From Rhodococcus spongiicola (GTDB lineage Bacteria > Actinomycetota > Actinomycetes > Mycobacteriales > Mycobacteriaceae): a DNA stretch of 64,000 bases. The stretch is from contig NZ_RKLN01000002.1 in assembly GCF_004011835.1 (NCBI RefSeq), positions 353,469 through 417,468 of the forward strand, in the 5' to 3' direction. Position 1 is the first letter of the stretch. Every line of letters starts with the position of its first letter. Under the pieces are notes generated by a model, which made no database searches, had not been told where the DNA came from, and worked only from the letters and a program-made list of their open reading frames with translations. Both the position numbers and the translations under genes were made by a program. Below are positions 39,421-46,390 of the stretch, in pieces.

Positions 39421-39560
39421 ACCGAGGACGAGTCCCAGCCGGGTTCCGAAGCCCCAGCCGAGGCGACGGGTCCGCACGTGGAGCAAGGAGTAATCGGCGA
39501 TGAACATTGCGACCACTCCTCACTTGAACCGTCTCGAGTCCTCGGTTCCCGAGACCCGGA
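39421..39560 (+). pseudogene. Internally deleted remnant of the secreted Gly/His-repeat gene family
   Basis: The segment copies the leader, start and tail of the three genes at 41.8-44.4 kb. GAGGACGAGTCCC, AGGCGACGG, CCGCACGTGGAGCAAGGAGTA and ATGAAC match the leader and start. Within 25 nt of the ATG the sequence jumps to TGAACCGTCT...CTCGG.TCC.GAG, which in the intact copies begins at the stop codon. The whole signal peptide and repeat region is therefore missing. A 30-codon frame (39500-39592) remains with a good ribosome site, but it encodes nothing like the parent protein. It lies between etfA and the MFS pseudogene. Confidence 0.7.
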
Positions 39561-39646: not shown

Positions 39647-41046
39647 GTGACAGCCAGCTTCCTCGAACGTTCGAGGATCGTCGCCAGACCCTGATGGAGC
39701 CGCTGGCTCGTTCCGCCAGCCGCACTCTCGATACATCTCGCCATCGGATCGACCTATGCCTGGAGCGTCTTCAAGTCTCCACTCGAGTCGTCGATGGGCA
39801 TCTCGGGAACGGCCAGTGCGCTGCCGTTCACCGTCAGCATCGTGATGCTCGGAGCCTCGGCCGCGCTGTTCGGAACCCGCGTAGATCGCAGGGGCCCGCG
39901 ATGGGCCATGGTCGTGGCCACCTCATGCTTCTGTAGCGGCTATCTGATCGCCGCCCTCGGGGTATTCATCGAACAGTACTGGCTTGTCGTGTTCGGCTAC
40001 GGGTTCGTCGGCGGTATCGGTCTGGGTATCGGGTACATCTCCCCGGTGTCCACGCTGATGAAGTGGTTCCCTGACCGTCCCGGGATGGCGGCGGGCATGG
40101 CCATCATGGGCTTCGGTGGTGGCGCCTTGGTGGCTTCGGCGTTGGCCAACAGCCTGCTCGACGGCCTCGGTCGAGACACGGCCGGAGTTTCGGCGACCCT
40201 TCTCGTGATCGGTTGTGCCTACGCGGTATTCATGTCGTTGGGCTGGCTGCTGATCCGCGTTCCGGCGCCCGACTGGAGGCCTGTCGGCTGGGAGTCCACG
40301 CCACACAGGGCCGAATCGCTTGTCAGCACGGTGAGCGTCTCAGCGACAAGCGCGATCAAGACACCCCAGTTCTGGCTGCTCTGGATTGCCCTGTGCTTCA
40401 ACGTCACCGCGGGAATCGGCATTCTCGAGAGGGCAGCTCCGATCTTCCAGGACTTCTTCCCCACCGCGTCCAGCGCGCCACGGCTCTGGCAGTGGCGGCT
40501 GCGGGATTCGTGGCGGTCGTCTCGCTGGCCAACATCGCGGGTCGATTCGGCTGGTCGACGTTGTCCGACGTCATCGGCCGCAAGAACATGTTCCGGCTCT
40601 ATCTCGGTGGCGGTGCTCTTCTGTACCTGACGCTCGCTCTGACCACCAACGCCAACAAGGCGTTGTTCCTCGTCTGCACGATGCTGATCGTGTCCTTCTA
40701 CGGCGCAGGGTTCGCGACTGTCCCGGCATACTTGCGCGACTTGTTCGGCAGCCGGGAGGTCGGTGCGATCCACGGCAGGTTGGTTACGGCGTGGTCCGCG
40801 GCCGGCGTGCTCGGACCACTTATCGTGAACGCTGTCGCGGACTCTCAGAACGTGGCCGGCAAGAGCGGTCCGGATCTCTACATGCTGAAGTTCGGGGTCA
40901 TGATCGTGCTGTTGATCGTGGGGTTCGTCTGGAACGAGCTGATTCGGCACGTCGACCCCAAGTACCAGGAAGCCGTTCCGGCCAGGGTGGAGGACTCCGT
41001 CGGGGACTGGACTTCACATCGCAGAGAGGCGGGGCAGGAAACGTGA
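39647..41046 (+). pseudogene. Oxalate/formate-antiporter-type MFS permease, broken by a nonsense codon and a frameshift
   Basis: A GTG at 39647 with AGAAGGGG upstream starts a frame that reads VTASFLERSRIVARP, then TGA at 39692-39694, then WSRWLVPPAALSIHLAIG and STYAWSVFKSPLE, the expected OFA-family N-terminus. GGA to TGA would explain the stop. The frame continues to about 40470 (QDFFPTASSA). Homology then switches to the -1 frame (TALAVAAAGFVAVVSLANIAGRFGW and onward) up to the stop at 41046. Two lesions make an active protein unlikely. Without them it would be about 465 residues with 12 helices. A sequencing error could account for one lesion. An internal ATG at 39794 would lose the first helix. 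Confidence 0.8.
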
Positions 41047-41204
41047 CAAACACCAAACCGGCCACAGCTGCAAAGCCAGAGCACGGGTCCGGCCACCCCG
41101 TCAATCGCGGGCTCATCGCCCTCGCCTGGTTGACGGTGACCGTACCCTTCGTCTACGGGCTCTCGCAGCTCTGCGCTACGGCCTCCCATCTCTTCGGCTA
41201 CTGA
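41043..41204 (+). CDS. MFS transporter small-subunit-like membrane peptide
   Basis: A 53-residue protein whose GTG overlaps the MFS stop (GTGA). A polar 22-residue start is followed by one transmembrane helix (GLIALAWLTVTVPFVYGLSQL) and a short tail ending LFGY. Such peptides regularly follow OFA-type MFS genes in actinobacteria and are annotated as MFS small subunits. Unlike its partner here it is intact, so the damage upstream may be recent. Confidence 0.7.
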   Translation: MTNTKPATAAKPEHGSGHPVNRGLIALAWLTVTVPFVYGLSQLCATASHLFGY

Positions 41205-41640
41205 AGAAGGTCGAACACGACTGTGTCCAAGGCGACTTCGACCAGTCGATGCGCCCGAACACCGTGGTGATCGAGCAGCTTCTCGAAATGCTGTCAACTG
41301 ACCGGTATCGGCTGTGACGGTACGGAGGTCGGGGTCGATATCGAACTGACGCAAGGGTATCGGCCGGACTGGGTGACCGGGCAGAGAGCGGTCTTCCGCC
41401 TGGCGGGGTCGTCATGCCGGTCAGTGGCGGGCGTCGTTCGAGTCGGTTCGGAGGCCTGTGATGGCCGAACTCCCGTGTCGGGGGTGGGGGCAACGATGGC
41501 GTGGACGTGAGATGTGTCACGGCAGCGAGTGGCTCGCAGGGCGGCGGCGGTCGTTTCCGGGGGACTGTTCGGTTCGCTGAGCGATCGTTTGTGCTGCTCA
41601 TCGTCGTGCGTGCGGAACGTGCGATCAGAAGAGGGCGGAG
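41205..41640. other. Gene-free stretch between the MFS small-subunit gene and the first repeat-protein leader
   Basis: No gene is supported. In the plus-strand frame 41201-41317 there are 38 codons (including MRPNTVVIEQLLEML) that look protein-like and may be the end of a decayed gene. I could not name it. The right end (from about 41570) begins to resemble the upstream regions of the second and third repeat genes (GTTTGTGCTG.TCATCG). Confidence 0.35.
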
Positions 41641-41799
41641 CTGGCTATTGCGGCTGCGCCGCATGGGATTCCGCCCGGCTGATGCACGAAGCCGACGGGC
41701 GTACGTTGGGTTTTGGCCCGTCCGTCACGTAGAGGACGAGTCCCGTCGTTTCCGAAGCCCGCCAAGGCGACGGATCCGTATGTGGACCAAGGAGTATTG
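41641..41799 (+). promoter_or_regulatory. Conserved leader of secreted repeat gene 1
   Basis: This 159-nt segment is closely matched before the second and third genes. The best conserved blocks are TTGGCCCGTCCGTCA.GTAG and AGGACGAGTCCCGTCG (41714-41748), and GGCGACGGAYCCG plus ATGTGGACCAAGGAGTAT (41767-41797). A TATTGC near 41645 may be the -10 box. GTCCGTC (41720-41726) can pair with GACGGAT (41769-41775), or CGTCC (41719-41723) with GGACG (41734-41738). The two pairings exclude each other. AAGGAG (41789-41794) is the ribosome site. Confidence 0.55.
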
Positions 41800-42285
41800 A
41801 TGATGAACACAAAGACCATCTCCCGACGTCGTACTCTCGCCAAGATCGCTGTTGTCGGAGCGCTCGCTGCGCTGCCCCTCGGACTCGGAGTCGCCCCGGC
41901 CGTGGCAACGCCCAGCGCGCCGGTCTCGGCACCGATCAACGACGTCCGTCATGGGTATGGGCATGGCTTCGGATCGATCTCGGCACCAGTGAACGACGTC
42001 CGTCATGGATATGGCGGGCATGGCTTCGGTCGCGGTGGCTTCGGATCGATCTCGGCACCAGTCAACGACGTCGCCTATGGACCGCACCACGCCCAGTATC
42101 GGGGGCCAGGGTTCGGGGGACCGGGGTTCCGCCCGGGGCCGGGGCCAGGGTTCGGCGGGCCGGGGTTCCACCCAGGTCCGGGTTATGGACCGGGGTTCCG
42201 CCCGGGACCGGGTTTCGGGGGACCGGGTTTCGGGGGACCGGGTTTCGGGGGACCGGGTTTCGGGGGACCGGGTTTCGGGTCCTGA
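41800..42285 (+). CDS. Secreted Gly-rich repeat protein 1 (SISAP-repeat family, GPGFG tail)
   Basis: 161 residues, not a family I recognise. Residues 1-36 are a signal peptide: SRRRTLAKIAVVGALAALP then LGLGVAPAVA, cleaved after AVA. The arginines could also suit the Tat route. The mature part has three copies of SISAP/SAP-[IV]-N-D-V-R-H-G-Y-G, then a Pro/Gly/Phe region that ends in five GPGFG units coded by exact 15-bp repeats. It resembles elastin-like or coat-type low-complexity proteins. Its own leader and terminator make it a single-gene unit. The signal region is nearly identical to genes 2 and 3, while the tails differ. Confidence 0.75.
   Translation: MMNTKTISRRRTLAKIAVVGALAALPLGLGVAPAVATPSAPVSAPINDVRHGYGHGFGSISAPVNDVRHGYGGHGFGRGGFGSISAPVNDVAYGPHHAQYRGPGFGGPGFRPGPGPGFGGPGFHPGPGYGPGFRPGPGFGGPGFGGPGFGGPGFGGPGFGS
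42205..42279 (+). repeat. Five perfect 15-bp repeats encoding GPGFG units
   Basis: GGACCGGGTTTCGGG occurs five times without change (42205-42279), reaching the last residue before the stop of repeat gene 1. Absence of synonymous differences points to recent expansion or frequent slippage. Confidence 0.95.
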
Positions 42286-42337
42286 ACCGTCTCGCTTCTG
42301 CCGATTCCTGAGCGGCCAGTCGGTCCTGCTATCGGGT

Positions 42338-42376
42338 GATTCCACCCACCTCGCCGCCGCCGAGGTGGGTGGAATC
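42338..42376 (+). terminator. Terminator hairpin after repeat gene 1
   Basis: GATTCCACCCACCTCG (42338-42353) pairs perfectly with CGAGGTGGGTGGAATC (42361-42376), 16 bp, 7-nt loop, 52 nt after the stop. It isolates gene 1 from gene 2. Confidence 0.8.
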
Positions 42377-42514
42377 GTATGGAAGGCGAGCGTGGCTCAG
42401 TGGCCTCGGCAGGGTACTGGAGGACCGTTTCCGGGGGACCGTTCGGTTCTGTGAGTGGTAGTTTGCGCTGATCATCGTGGTGCGGCCGGAATCGATGATC
42501 GAAGGGGCCGGGAC

Positions 42515-42675
42515 CGGTTATTCCGCTTGCGCAGTACGGGATTCAGCTCCGCTGAAGCCCCACGCCGACAGGCGTACCTTGGGTTTTGGCCCGTCCGTCA
42601 CGTAGAGGACGAGTCCCGTCGGTTCCGACGCCGGCAGCAAAGGCGACGGATCCGCATGTGGACCAAGGAGTATTG
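42515..42675 (+). promoter_or_regulatory. Conserved leader of secreted repeat gene 2
   Basis: Second copy of the leader. Here CGTCG-GTTC-CGACG (about 42617-42630) makes a clean hairpin; the same stem in copy 3 has GATC as loop. The ribosome site AAGGAG and the TGATGATG start arrangement are as in copy 1. A frame through the leader (ending MWTKEY-stop) overlaps the ATG in copies 1 and 2, but its codons are not conserved as protein. Confidence 0.55.
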
Positions 42676-43179
42676 ATGATGAACACAAAGACCATCTCCC
42701 GACGTCGTACTCTCGCCAAGATCGCTGTTGTCGGAGCGCTCGCTGCGCTGCCCCTCGGGCTCGGAGTCGCCCCGGCCGTGGCTGCGCCCAGCACGCCTGT
42801 GTCGGCGCCGATCAATGATGTCCGTGGACACGGCAGCTTCGGGTCGATCTCGGCGCCGATCAACGATGTCCGTCATGGCTTCGGGCACGGCTTCGGGTCG
42901 ATCTCGGCGCCGATCAACGATGTCCGCCATGGCTTCGGGCACGGCTTCGGGTCGATCTCGGCACCAGTCAACGATGTCCGTCATGGCTATGGCGGGCATG
43001 GCTTCGGGCACGGATTCCGTGGCGGTGGCTTCGGGCACGGATTCGGTGGCGGCTTCGGATCGATCTCGGCACCAGCCAACAATGCCGATCGACATGGCTA
43101 CGGTCCGGAGCTCAGCAGAGGCCCCTTCGGGGGGCCGTTCGGCTCCGGCCCTCCCGGGCAGCTCGGATCCCTGTCCTGA
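42676..43179 (+). CDS. Secreted Gly/His-rich repeat protein 2 (SISAP-repeat family)
   Basis: 167 residues. The same signal peptide as protein 1, with cleavage after PAVA, is followed by five SISAP-type repeats of about 18 residues (FGSISAPINDVRHGFGHG), a Gly/His/Phe-rich stretch and a tail ending GQLGSLS. Repeats 2 and 3 are almost identical in DNA. His next to Gly and Tyr/Phe in every repeat would allow metal binding or aromatic stacking. No enzyme motif is seen. Own leader and terminator. Confidence 0.75.
   Translation: MMNTKTISRRRTLAKIAVVGALAALPLGLGVAPAVAAPSTPVSAPINDVRGHGSFGSISAPINDVRHGFGHGFGSISAPINDVRHGFGHGFGSISAPVNDVRHGYGGHGFGHGFRGGGFGHGFGGGFGSISAPANNADRHGYGPELSRGPFGGPFGSGPPGQLGSLS
42837..42990 (+). 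repeat. 54-bp tandem repeats inside repeat gene 2
   Basis: Units 42837-42890 and 42891-42944 differ at very few bases, and a third, partly diverged unit follows. Each encodes 18 residues (FGSISAPINDVRHGFGHG). The repeat length differs from the 60-bp unit of gene 3, so each gene has expanded on its own. Confidence 0.9.
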
Positions 43180-43241
43180 ACCGTCACGGGTCTCTCGATT
43201 CCTGAGCGAGCCCTGCTGTCGGGTGTGTCCAGCCCACCTCG

Positions 43242-43273
43242 CTCCCATGCCGCCTAATCGGTAGGCATGGGAG
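43242..43273 (+). terminator. Terminator hairpin after repeat gene 2
   Basis: CTCCCATGCC (43242-43251) pairs with GGCATGGGAG (43264-43273), 10 bp, 12-nt loop, 62 nt after the stop. The loop and stem sequence are shared with the terminator of gene 3, showing that the duplicated unit includes its terminator. Confidence 0.75.
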
Positions 43274-43718
43274 GTTGGTGGCCGACAACCTCACGAGACC
43301 GGTCCTACCCTGATCGGGTTCCCGAGCGGCACCACGATAGAAATCTGCACTCACCCGGACCGCGTCTCCAGCCTGTGGCTGGAGCGCGGCCTTCTTGTCG
43401 AGCGGGGCGCTCCTATGCCACTCGTTTGGAGGCTGTCGCGGGTCTTGTGGCAGTTGACGTAGTGGTCGCAGCGCTGTGGGGACCTGCTGTGTGTGCTGGG
43501 TGTCGCGCGTCAGCCCAGGCGGCCGAAGCACGGGACCGGCGTGAACGGGATAGGTCGCGAGCATGACCTGGTGACGTTCGTCACGGTCGTGAGCTGGTTC
43601 GGTGACGTTCGGAGGGCACTGAAGGGTCGCATTATGGAAACAGTTCGTTTGCATAGCGAGCGTTTGTGCTGATCATGGCGGTGCGGCCGGAACCGACGAT
43701 CAGAAGGGATCGCGATTG
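43274..43718. other. Gene-free stretch between repeat genes 2 and 3
   Basis: About 445 bp without a supported gene. Short frames on both strands are Arg-rich shadows. From about 43650 it is the upstream part of the third duplicated unit (GTTTGTGCTGATCATGGCGG matches GTTTGCGCTGATCATCGTGG before gene 2). The rest has no counterpart next to genes 1 or 2 and may be an insertion. Confidence 0.4.
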
Positions 43719-43878
43719 GCTATTACTCTTGCGCGGCACGGGATTCCGTCCCACTGAACCCCAACTTCGACAGGCGTACGGTGGGTCTTGGCCCGTCCGT
43801 CAGGTAGAGGACGAGTCCCGTCGGATCCGACGCCGGCAGCCAAGGCGACGGACCCGCATGTGGACCAAGGAGTATTTG
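43719..43878 (+). promoter_or_regulatory. Conserved leader of secreted repeat gene 3
   Basis: Third copy of the leader. Here the long-range pairing GTCCGTC with GACGGAC is fully Watson-Crick, whereas copies 1 and 2 have a G-U at its outer end. CGTCG-GATC-CGACG is part of a 14-bp perfect palindrome. One extra T before the start (TATTTGATG) puts the upstream frame in phase with the protein, unlike copies 1 and 2, so that frame is not conserved. Confidence 0.55.
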
Positions 43879-44394
43879 ATGAACACAAAGACCATCCCCC
43901 CACGTCGTACTCTCGCCAAGATCGCCATTGTCGGAGCGCTTGCTGCGCTTCCCCTCGGGCTCGGAGTCGCGCCGGCCATGGCAGCGCCCAGCGCGCCGGT
44001 GTCGGCACCGATCAACGACGTACGTCATGGGTACGGGCACGGCTTCGGATCGATCTCGGCACCCATCAACAATGTCGATCGCCATGGCTACGGACGCGGT
44101 AGCTTCGGATCGATCTCGGCACCCGCCAACAATGTCGATCGCCATGGCTACGGACGCGGCAGCTTCGGATCGATCTCGGCACCCGCCAACAGTGTGGATC
44201 GCCATGGCTACGGACGCGGCAGCTTCGGATCGATCTCGGCACCGATCAACGACGCCCGTTGGCACTTCGGATCGATCTCGGCGCCAATCAACGACGTCAA
44301 GCATGGCTACGGAGGGCACGGCTATGGAGGAGGACACCACGGCTATGGAGGAGGACACCACGGCTACGGAAACGAGTTCGGCAGGTACTGGTGA
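43879..44394 (+). CDS. Secreted Gly/His-rich repeat protein 3 (SISAP-repeat family)
   Basis: 171 residues. Signal peptide as in proteins 1 and 2 (PPRRTLAKIAIVG onward, cleavage after PAMA). Mature repeats are 20 residues long here (FGSISAPANNVDRHGYGRGS), three in near-exact copies, then shorter SISAP units and a tail of GYGGGHH units ending FGRYW. Positively charged and rich in His/Gly/Tyr. It may coat the cell, bind metal or polymerise. These are inferences from composition only. Confidence 0.75.
   Translation: MNTKTIPPRRTLAKIAIVGALAALPLGLGVAPAMAAPSAPVSAPINDVRHGYGHGFGSISAPINNVDRHGYGRGSFGSISAPANNVDRHGYGRGSFGSISAPANSVDRHGYGRGSFGSISAPINDARWHFGSISAPINDVKHGYGGHGYGGGHHGYGGGHHGYGNEFGRYW
44041..44240 (+). 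repeat. 60-bp tandem repeats inside repeat gene 3
   Basis: Units 44041-44100, 44101-44160 and 44161-44220 are nearly identical and a fourth begins at 44221. Each encodes 20 residues. Differences are few and mostly at the APIN/APAN and NNV/NSV codons. Confidence 0.95.
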
Positions 44395-44521
44395 CCACGG
44401 TTCCACCCGGGACCAAGGAGACTCGGAGGCTTCGACCCGCCCGCGGATTCCTGGCGTGAACCGTCTGAAGTCTCTCGGCTCCTGAGCGAGCAGTACGCCC
44501 TGTTGAAGGGGTGCTCCACCT

Positions 44522-44559
44522 CGGCTCCCATGCCGACGAATCGGTAGGGATGGGAGCCG
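44522..44559 (+). terminator. Terminator hairpin after repeat gene 3
   Basis: CGGCTCCCATGCC (44522-44534) pairs with GGGATGGGAGCCG (44547-44559) with one mismatch. CCGA and TCGG in the loop add a small inner stem. The remaining bases up to 44714 contain a TTGACG (44675-44680) that may belong to the promoter of the next gene, but no gene. Confidence 0.75.
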
Positions 44560-44714
44560 GAGGCCATCGGTTCGACGAGACCATGCGCGCACGTACCGGC
44601 TTCCGCGCCGAAGGGCGGAGAGCGGAGGTAGGCGCGCGGTCCGTTCACCAAAGCTGCACCGACGCGACACGCGGTTGACGCCCTACCGCCGGTCGGCGGC
44701 GATAGACCTGCGCC

Positions 44715-45545
44715 ATGACAACTTCGTTGGTCGAAACCGTCTGTTCTGCGCGGGAACCCGGCCTTGTCACGAGCGGGTCGCGTTACTCCCTGCTGGTCTC
44801 CTCCGACCGTGAGCACCGCGAGGCGGCGCAGCGCCTGCGTCACCGCGTGTTCTCCACCGAACCCGGCTTCGTGATCTCCCGATCTCCCGATGGGCGCGAC
44901 GCCGACAGGTTCGACGAGTTCTGCGACCATCTGTTGGTCCGTGACAACGCCTCGGGCGAGTTCGTCGGCTGCTACCGCATGCTCACGCCCGACCGGGCGG
45001 GCGCGGCTGGCGGCTACTACACCGCCACCGAGTTCGACCTGTCCACGCTGGACCCGGCCGCGCACCGGATCGTCGAGATGGGGCGCGCGTGCGTGGATCC
45101 CGCGCACCGCTCGGGTTCCGTCCTCGTTCTGATGTGGGCGGGCATCCTCCAATACCTCCAACTGACCGGTCACCACACCGTCATGGGCTGTGTCTCCGTG
45201 CCAATGCAGGACAAGCCCGATGCCGTCGCCGGCGCGAACGTGCGAGGGGTACGCGACTTCCTGCTAGATCGCCACGCCGCCGATCGGTCACGGTGGGTGC
45301 GGCCGCTGCGCCCGGTGCGGGTGGACGGGCGGCCGCTCGACGACATCGCGTCGACCGCGCGTCCCGCCGTGCCTCCGCTGCTGCGCGGCTACCTGCGGTT
45401 GGGGGCGCGGATCTGCGGCGAACCCGCGCACGATCCTGACTTCGGGGTCGCGGACTTCGTGGCGGTGCAGAGACTGGCCGACGCCGACACCCGCTATCTC
45501 GAGCGGTTGCAGCGTGCGTCGGCGGCGGTCGAGGTAGTGACGTGA
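44715..45545 (+). CDS. GNAT-fold N-acyltransferase, OlsB-like
   Basis: A 276-residue protein of the OlsB/hemolysin-type acyltransferase group: LRHRVFSTEPGF, DRFDEFCDHLLVRD, VEMGRACVDPAHRSGSVLVLMWAGI, and PPLLRGYLRLGARICGEPAHDPDFGVADF, which is the characteristic OlsB ending. OlsB joins a 3-hydroxyacyl chain from ACP to ornithine. The next gene is PlsC-like, as is OlsA, so ornithine-lipid or a related aminolipid synthesis is a reasonable guess. It corresponds to Rv3027c by position. Start and stop fit. GTGA overlap with the next gene. Confidence 0.8.
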   Translation: MTTSLVETVCSAREPGLVTSGSRYSLLVSSDREHREAAQRLRHRVFSTEPGFVISRSPDGRDADRFDEFCDHLLVRDNASGEFVGCYRMLTPDRAGAAGGYYTATEFDLSTLDPAAHRIVEMGRACVDPAHRSGSVLVLMWAGILQYLQLTGHHTVMGCVSVPMQDKPDAVAGANVRGVRDFLLDRHAADRSRWVRPLRPVRVDGRPLDDIASTARPAVPPLLRGYLRLGARICGEPAHDPDFGVADFVAVQRLADADTRYLERLQRASAAVEVVT

Positions 45546-46390
45546 GCCACCCGTGGTTTCCGACGAGCCCATGTGGTGACGGGTGTCTGCCACGGCGCCC
45601 GGATCGGGTGTCGGCTCTGACTGTGTGCGCGCGCTGGGTGGCGCTGGCGCTGACAGTATCGTGTGCGGCGCTGTTGCCTCTGGTGCGCATGTTGCCCCCC
45701 ACGGCACGGACGGCGGGTCATCGACTTCTTGCGCGGACAGCGTTGCGTGGCATCGGTATTCGGCTCGACGTCGAAGGCCGAGCGAGCAGCGGCACGGGAG
45801 GGGTGCTGGTGGTGGCGGGGCACGTCTCGTGGGCGGACGTCCTGGTGCTCGCCGCGGTGGTGCCCGGCCGCTTCGTAGCACGCGCCGACCTGGTCACGTG
45901 GCCGCTACTGGGAGGGGTGGCTCGGCGGGCGGGCATCATCCCGATCGAGCGGGCGCGTCTGCGGGAACTGCCGGGAACGGTCGCACAGGTGCGGGAATAT
46001 CTCGGTGCGGGTGAGACCGTGATCGCCTTTCCGGAGGGGACCACATGGTGCGGGCAGGCGTTCGGCCGATTCCGGCCGGCGCTGTTTCAGGCGGCGATCG
46101 ACGCCGATTGCCTCGTGCTGCCGGTGTCGATCGACTACGTCACCGCGTCGGGCGAACGGACGACGGGTCCGAGCTTCGTCGGCGACGAGGGCATCGGAGT
46201 CTCGATCCGGCGGGTCCTGCGCAGCCGTGGCCTGAGGGTGGAGGTCGTCTTGGGCGCCCCCCAGGTCGCGGGATCCTCCCGACGCGAACTCGCGCGGCGG
46301 TGCGACCGGCACGTCCGGCGCCGCACCGATGACGGCACCCGACGGATCCTCGCTCAGCTGGAGGGACAACGTCACCAGTCGGCTGCGTGA
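45542..46390 (+). CDS. PlsC-type lysophospholipid/lyso-aminolipid acyltransferase
   Basis: A 282-residue membrane-associated acyltransferase. An N-terminal hydrophobic segment (WVALALTVSCAALLPLV) precedes the catalytic GHVSWADVLVLA (H-x4-D), GIIPIERAR and FPEGTTWCG motifs of the glycerol-phosphate acyltransferase family. The Asn before His that is common in the motif is Gly here. The GTG start overlaps the stop of the OlsB-like gene by 4 nt. Together the two would add two acyl chains to one head group. The true acceptor is not shown. Confidence 0.85.
   Translation: MSHPWFPTSPCGDGCLPRRPDRVSALTVCARWVALALTVSCAALLPLVRMLPPTARTAGHRLLARTALRGIGIRLDVEGRASSGTGGVLVVAGHVSWADVLVLAAVVPGRFVARADLVTWPLLGGVARRAGIIPIERARLRELPGTVAQVREYLGAGETVIAFPEGTTWCGQAFGRFRPALFQAAIDADCLVLPVSIDYVTASGERTTGPSFVGDEGIGVSIRRVLRSRGLRVEVVLGAPQVAGSSRRELARRCDRHVRRRTDDGTRRILAQLEGQRHQSAA

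Follow-up and report, generated by a model that had tools for sequence, protein, structure and literature searches.

Three tandem genes for putatively exported SISAP-repeat proteins in Rhodococcus spongiicola and R. xishaensis

The window analysed here, a 64,000-nucleotide (nt) stretch of the Rhodococcus spongiicola genome (contig NZ_RKLN01000002.1, positions 353,469 to 417,468), contains three tandem genes for repeat proteins, here called SISAP proteins after their recurring motif FGSISAP. SISAP genes 1, 2 and 3 comprise 160, 166 and 171 codons, stop excluded, and AAGGAG precedes the start codon of each (Table 1). The first approximately 48 residues are almost identical in the three proteins and were assigned by eye to an export type, with two arginines, a hydrophobic stretch and an A-x-A motif. 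The twin arginine before the hydrophobic stretch is invariant in all six SISAP proteins, those of the window and of R. xishaensis, and with the N-termini read by eye the residues around it fit the twin-arginine translocation (Tat) motif only loosely.

Table 1. Features of the SISAP array and its upstream neighbourhood (window positions).
Feature	Position	Strand	Remark
Relic leader and start of decayed fourth SISAP copy, upstream of the MFS gene	39424..39506	+	81% identity to copy 2 leader over 81 query bases; alignment with R. xishaensis relic
MFS transporter gene, frame broken in the window	39647..41043	+	Open over 464 amino acids (aa) in R. xishaensis
Copy 1 upstream 35-nt element at the position of the imperfect dyad	41594..41628	+	5 of 10 positions paired
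Copy 1 leader with ribosome-binding site	41628..41801	+
SISAP gene 1	41803..42285	+	160 aa, GPGFG tail
Hairpin 3' of gene 1	42338..42376	+	Folding
Copy 2 upstream dyad	42468..42502	+	8 of 10 positions paired
Copy 2 leader	42501..42674	+
SISAP gene 2	42679..43179	+	166 aa, PEL-RGPFGGP tail
Hairpin 3' of gene 2	43234..43281	+	Folding
Copy 3 upstream dyad	43669..43703	+	8 of 10 positions paired
Copy 3 leader	43703..43876	+
SISAP gene 3	43879..44394	+	171 aa, GGHHGYGNEFGRYW tail
Hairpin 3' of gene 3	44522..44559	+	Folding

After the N-terminus the proteins consist of irregular FGSISAP-[VIA]-N units, each followed by a stretch of Gly, His and aromatic residues. Tandem periods of 42, 54 and 60 nt correspond to units of 14, 18 and 20 residues, and 12 of the 13 tandem-repeat rows found within the genes have whole-codon periods (15, 21, 27, 39, 42, 45, 54, 60 and 108 nt), the remaining row having a period of 29 and a low match of 64%. 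The longest repeated words of the mature parts were 20, 25 and 21 residues for genes 1, 2 and 3, respectively; shuffling the residues 1000 times gave words no longer than 9, 8 and 7, so that the repetition is far above chance. The FGSIS[AS]P units number 2, 4 and 5 in genes 1 to 3 of the window and 1, 1 and 3 in those of R. xishaensis. The Ser-Ile-Ser codons read TCG ATC TCG in all 16 GSIS[AS]P units of the two species despite variable neighbouring codons; codon bias, recent copying and DNA-level constraint are alternative explanations of this uniformity.

The mature chains contain 22–37% Gly, 5–10% His and 8–19 aromatic residues, have a low net charge and near-neutral to basic isoelectric points (7.1–9.8), and all six lack Cys. 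The motif [FY]G occurs 7–15 times and HG[FY] 4–9 times per mature chain, and the six proteins carry GHG[FY] (2–5 per protein) as well as HG[FY]G. The most constant segment of the unit, GSIS[AS]P-N, contains no His, and neither does the 26-residue tail of gene 1, while the tail of gene 3 contains HHGYGGGHH clusters.

Each of the three genes is preceded by a conserved leader of about 174 nt, those of copies 1 and 3 sharing 70 and 86% identity with the copy 2 leader, and is followed by a hairpin of high stability (-27.5 to -32.1 kcal/mol, z scores -5.1 to -6.1). A hairpin lies also behind each of the three SISAP genes of R. xishaensis. The original prediction, which had described three plus-strand genes with a shared signal peptide, three diverged C-terminal tails, a leader for each gene and duplication of whole units, is borne out in these respects, the leaders and hairpins accompanying every gene. 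Its repeat units of 18–20 residues were found as in-frame FGSISAP units, but these measure 14, 18 or 20 residues and form irregular arrays. The terminator that it had assigned to each gene is a stable hairpin with a plausible terminator role, but the hairpins show no clear uridine run and are missing from the six sites that the terminator scan listed.

A 35-nt imperfect dyad, CTG[AC]TCAT[CG]G-N15-CGANGATCAG, lies before five of the six leaders of the two species, pairing at 5, 8, 8, 8 and 9 of ten positions; it is missing upstream of R. xishaensis gene 2. A search of the window with the dyad consensus, allowing up to three mismatches, found copies 2 and 3 and nothing else (0.00 expected), the copy 1 element being too divergent to be detected. 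The dyad may be an operator and is regarded as a candidate for one. A simple scan revealed no promoter of the sigma-70 type.

The strong conservation of the leader and its presence before the MFS gene prompted a riboswitch reading, which was rejected because Rfam gave no match at E ≤ 1 within window positions 40900–44800, the five leaders folded had z scores of only -0.8 to -2.1, the consensus fold of seven leaders had no pair with changes on both sides (0/26), and the copy beside the MFS gene is a decayed SISAP gene. At E ≤ 5, Rfam matched three loci (L056–L058), all below their gathering scores. A 31-nt leader match on another contig (L058) lies within an apparently protein-coding stretch and was dropped. 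When 381 genomes of the family were searched with the leader, scoring two candidates per genome, eight genomes other than the window's own and R. xishaensis had matches, all of 24–52 nt, which were taken as chance.

R. xishaensis LHW51113 (locus L024) has three SISAP genes in the same order and at the same site, between the MFS and GNAT genes, with all frames open. In one published account, both R. xishaensis and R. spongiicola belong to the R. equi sublineage, and their description 'from marine sponges' is cited there (PMC11893733). Each tail matches its positional partner only: the alignment scores of the last 26 residues were 109–113 for the three positional pairs, and the remaining 12 pairs ranged from -13 to 27. 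The array is thus repeated copy for copy with partner-specific tails, and the SISAP genes look like real genes under selection when their sequences are compared. In the N-terminal 44 codons, nonsynonymous divergence (dN) was below synonymous divergence (dS) in all 15 pairs, and pN/pS was about 0.35 over 16 core SISAP units, which are not independent of each other.

In the same 44 codons, dS between paralogues was 0.136–0.203 in the window and 0.14–0.17 in R. xishaensis, and that between the orthologues of genes 1, 2 and 3 was 0.27, 0.198 and 0.277, respectively, with the six other cross-species pairs at 0.107–0.344. Four flanking genes or gene parts differed by dS 0.16–0.32 between the two species. 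The simplest account of these values would be a duplication that predates the species split, followed by partial homogenisation of the gene fronts while the tails were held apart. In the tree of leaders and signal peptides, the split between the species has support of just 70 (ultrafast bootstrap) or 0.868 (FastTree), and homogenisation within species is suggested with correspondingly modest support.

Upstream of the MFS gene, a relic leader and gene start mark a fourth, decayed copy, and an equivalent relic leader is present at this position in R. xishaensis. The relic frame of R. xishaensis has 43 codons and ends in GFGGFPPGLGFRS, resembling tail 1, and that of the window has 30 codons without a tail-1-like end. 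SISAP copies were thus formerly present on both sides of the MFS gene. The intact MFS protein of R. xishaensis matches MFS_1, its nearest NCBIfam model being the L-lactate MFS (316.9 bits, cut-off 320), and the gene is probably a neighbour outside the SISAP system. Its broken frame in the window may be due either to pseudogene decay or to sequencing error. After the array, two genes at window positions 44715–46387 match the NCBIfam models of the ornithine-lipid acyltransferases OlsB and OlsA far below the cut-off.

SISAP genes are absent from the etfA–GNAT interval of the 12 other genus genomes examined (loci L083–L093 and L095). The interval holds a minus-strand frame of 322–396 aa in seven of these, and is 658–883 nt long in two and 170–234 nt in three, so that the site is variable within the genus. 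The minus-strand frame may resemble AbiEi/DUF559 proteins. In L095, from a 79%-complete genome (G009), the GNAT gene matches as two pieces in different frames.

SISAP genes were found in this species and R. xishaensis only. Among 301 genomes drawn from the family, the profile of the mature part matched these two genomes alone. When 397 genomes of the order were sampled, the mature part of protein 3 matched its own genome and one marginal candidate, and a mature part likewise gave its own genome and one marginal match in 396 drawn from the phylum; R. xishaensis was absent from both sets of matches, presumably undrawn, and such sampled searches can therefore miss holders. The whole-protein profile matched eight of 14 genus genomes, over its full length only in the two holders. 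The other six matched only within the first 58 profile positions, by short His-rich proteins that were not counted as SISAP members. At loci L038–L043, six genus members encode short proteins that are rich in His and resemble the SISAP proteins in their signal peptide; the G009 locus includes a frame that looks DnaE-like. Neither a match in G275 (E 8e-4), with a stop inside, nor one in G652 (E 2.7e-4), within a frame of 797 aa, was counted as a SISAP member.

Whole protein 3, searched against 61 genomes with its own included, matched ten, six of them at the signal-peptide end only. Two further matches, in other genera of the family, were to another repeat type, the GYDR/GRDR-repeat proteins of G034 (L010; E 4.1e-6) and G026 (L011; E 4.5e-5). 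Like the SISAP proteins, these have an export-type N-terminus by eye followed by repeats of Gly, aromatic residues and Arg, but their repeat unit differs and the mature SISAP part does not match G034. Shared composition may explain the similarity, and neither was taken as a SISAP protein. Pfam gave no match for the L011 protein at E ≤ 0.01.

The three SISAP proteins matched no Pfam family and no PDB relative was found, both at E ≤ 1, in keeping with the unknown family originally proposed. Plasmids (searched with protein 3), phages (protein 2) and viral contigs (profile) gave no matches at the limits used, and the best PHROGs match (0.0014) is of unknown function. A match of protein 1 to an iron-oxidase model was rejected (13.5 bits, cut-off 100). 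Among the papers listed by the literature searches, no title or abstract opening described the family. We regard the SISAP proteins as a new family that is confined to one lineage and of a generally familiar type.

The reading tentatively preferred here is that the SISAP proteins form a set of exported low-complexity proteins that associate with themselves in the envelope or matrix. It rests on the export-type N-terminus, the Cys-free chains of Gly, His and aromatic residues, the in-frame repeats that vary between the species, dN below dS and the retained tails. The proteins would be exported, and the three would self- and cross-associate beyond the membrane, either within the cell envelope or in a matrix around the cell. 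Weak stickers would be provided by the aromatic-Gly and His-Gly-aromatic motifs and spacers by the SISAP-N segments; the chains could thereby condense or gel, possibly in response to pH or metal ions through His, and each tail could give its component a partner or material property of its own. Unequal recombination might change the number of repeats while function is preserved, as would be expected of such polymers. The structural or coat protein of the original prediction is thereby kept as the best-fitting reading of the sequences, though as one that is inferred.

Several points weigh against self-association outside the membrane. The signal peptide and export were identified by eye and not by a predictor program, no assembly gene was recognised adjoining the array, the proteins have no sortase motif, and GHGxY, the motif of the squid-beak proteins considered below, is absent from all six. 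In the charge-hydropathy plot all six mature chains fall slightly on the compact side, which speaks against extended disorder and is compatible with condensation.

An extracellular metal or haem buffer, in which the His-rich repeats capture Zn, Cu, Ni or haem on the cell surface, is possible, if on balance unlikely. The His content, the His clusters of tail 3 and the absence of Cys suit such a role, but the most constant segment of the unit and the tail of gene 1 are free of His, no metal transporter was recognised among the scanned adjacent genes, and the dyad is not known to match any metal-regulator box.

A more specific form of the self-association reading is somewhat less probable still: a condensate or gel that three bacterial components form outside the cell, with shared His/aromatic-Gly stickers, tails of different material roles (elastin- or silk-like GPGFG, PEL-RGPFGGP and His/Tyr) and co-regulation through leader and dyad, convergent with animal beak and adhesive proteins.

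Slightly further down the scale comes the view that these are young, weakly constrained orphan genes of little function, kept by recombination. The restriction to two species, the decay of the fourth copy in both and the apparent partial homogenisation of leaders and signal peptides would be expected of such genes; against this, three open frames and three tails have been retained in both species despite the flanking divergence, and dN is below dS in the N-terminal 44 codons. Secreted Gly/His-rich antimicrobial or signalling peptides seem more doubtful again. The proteins are small, with an export-type N-terminus and the isoelectric points given above, and are duplicated, lineage-restricted and differently tailed, but their net charge is low, their tails are conserved across species instead of diversifying, and no immunity or processing gene was recognised alongside.

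A precursor of ribosomally synthesised and post-translationally modified peptides (RiPPs), with repeated cores like those of TigB and a distant radical S-adenosylmethionine (SAM) enzyme or cleavage after export, is highly improbable. TigB, the precursor of a methyl-cyclopropylglycine RiPP with the motif TIGSVS, shares repeated G-S-[I/V]-S segments with the SISAP proteins, and its NCBIfam model (NF047709) matched residues 94–141 of protein 3, with the repeated GSIS segments, at E 7.7e-4. The score of 19.4 bits did not reach the cut-off of 70, and proteins 1 and 2 were unmatched at E ≤ 1, a limit at which the model gave sub-cut-off matches in seven of 14 control genomes; at E ≤ 1e-4 it matched none of these and two of 386 phylum genomes, none above the cut-off. 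A small protein elsewhere in the same genome (L063, G000:C12:146946-147077), whose N-terminus by eye is of the export type and is accompanied by LGS-D-type repeats, scored 19.9 bits, also below the cut-off. The SISAP proteins differ from TigB in their export-type N-terminus and in the Phe before GSIS; IGS[IV]S, with the Ile that directly precedes GS[V/I]S in the TigB motif, is absent from the six mature chains.

The PF04055 scan of the genome, which would miss a maturase outside the reach of this family, found no cognate radical-SAM enzyme. All ten PF04055 domains belong to other families (MftC, HemW, MiaB, BioB, LipA, CofG, CofH, RlmN, Rv2578c-type and MoaA), and the ten frames pass the NCBIfam cut-offs of these families, CofGH counting as two domains. 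MftC does mature a peptide, but that peptide is mycofactocin. A related kind of RiPP has been published: a passage on Halomonas describes the conversion of the TVGG repeats of TvgA to cyclopropylglycine by the radical-SAM enzyme TvgB (PMC9062424). With its score far below the cut-off and all the radical-SAM domains found belonging elsewhere, the TigB-like reading was rejected; the processed multi-copy peptide of the original prediction likewise lacks support, the mature parts having no dibasic site.

The two-species family would be a small system for the birth of repeat proteins after duplication, with fronts apparently homogenised, tails private and one copy dying. Should the proteins condense, they would serve as a genetically simple model for bacterial coacervates outside the cell and supply new sequences for materials.

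Among known systems, the chaplins and rodlins of Streptomyces are small, exported, surface-assembling actinobacterial proteins with several paralogues, from which the SISAP proteins differ in having no Pfam match at E ≤ 1. TvgA, in the passage describing it, is like the SISAP proteins in its short repeats and as the precursor of a secreted product, but its gene adjoins those of a radical-SAM enzyme, a dioxygenase and transporters, none of which lies beside the SISAP genes (PMC9062424). For the squid-beak proteins, a passage in the literature reports that His/Gly/Tyr repeats of the GHGLY type are enough for pH-driven condensation of peptides, which is driven by deprotonation of His and then by contacts of Tyr and requires four tandem GHGLY or two spaced copies (PMC6884462). 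The SISAP proteins are bacterial and include the SISAP-N segments, and with GHG[FY] and HG[FY]G in place of GHGxY no homology is claimed. The likeness to the squid-beak HBP-1 and HBP-2 is thus one of design only, both being built of modular Gly/His/aromatic repeats in which His stands beside Gly and aromatic residues.

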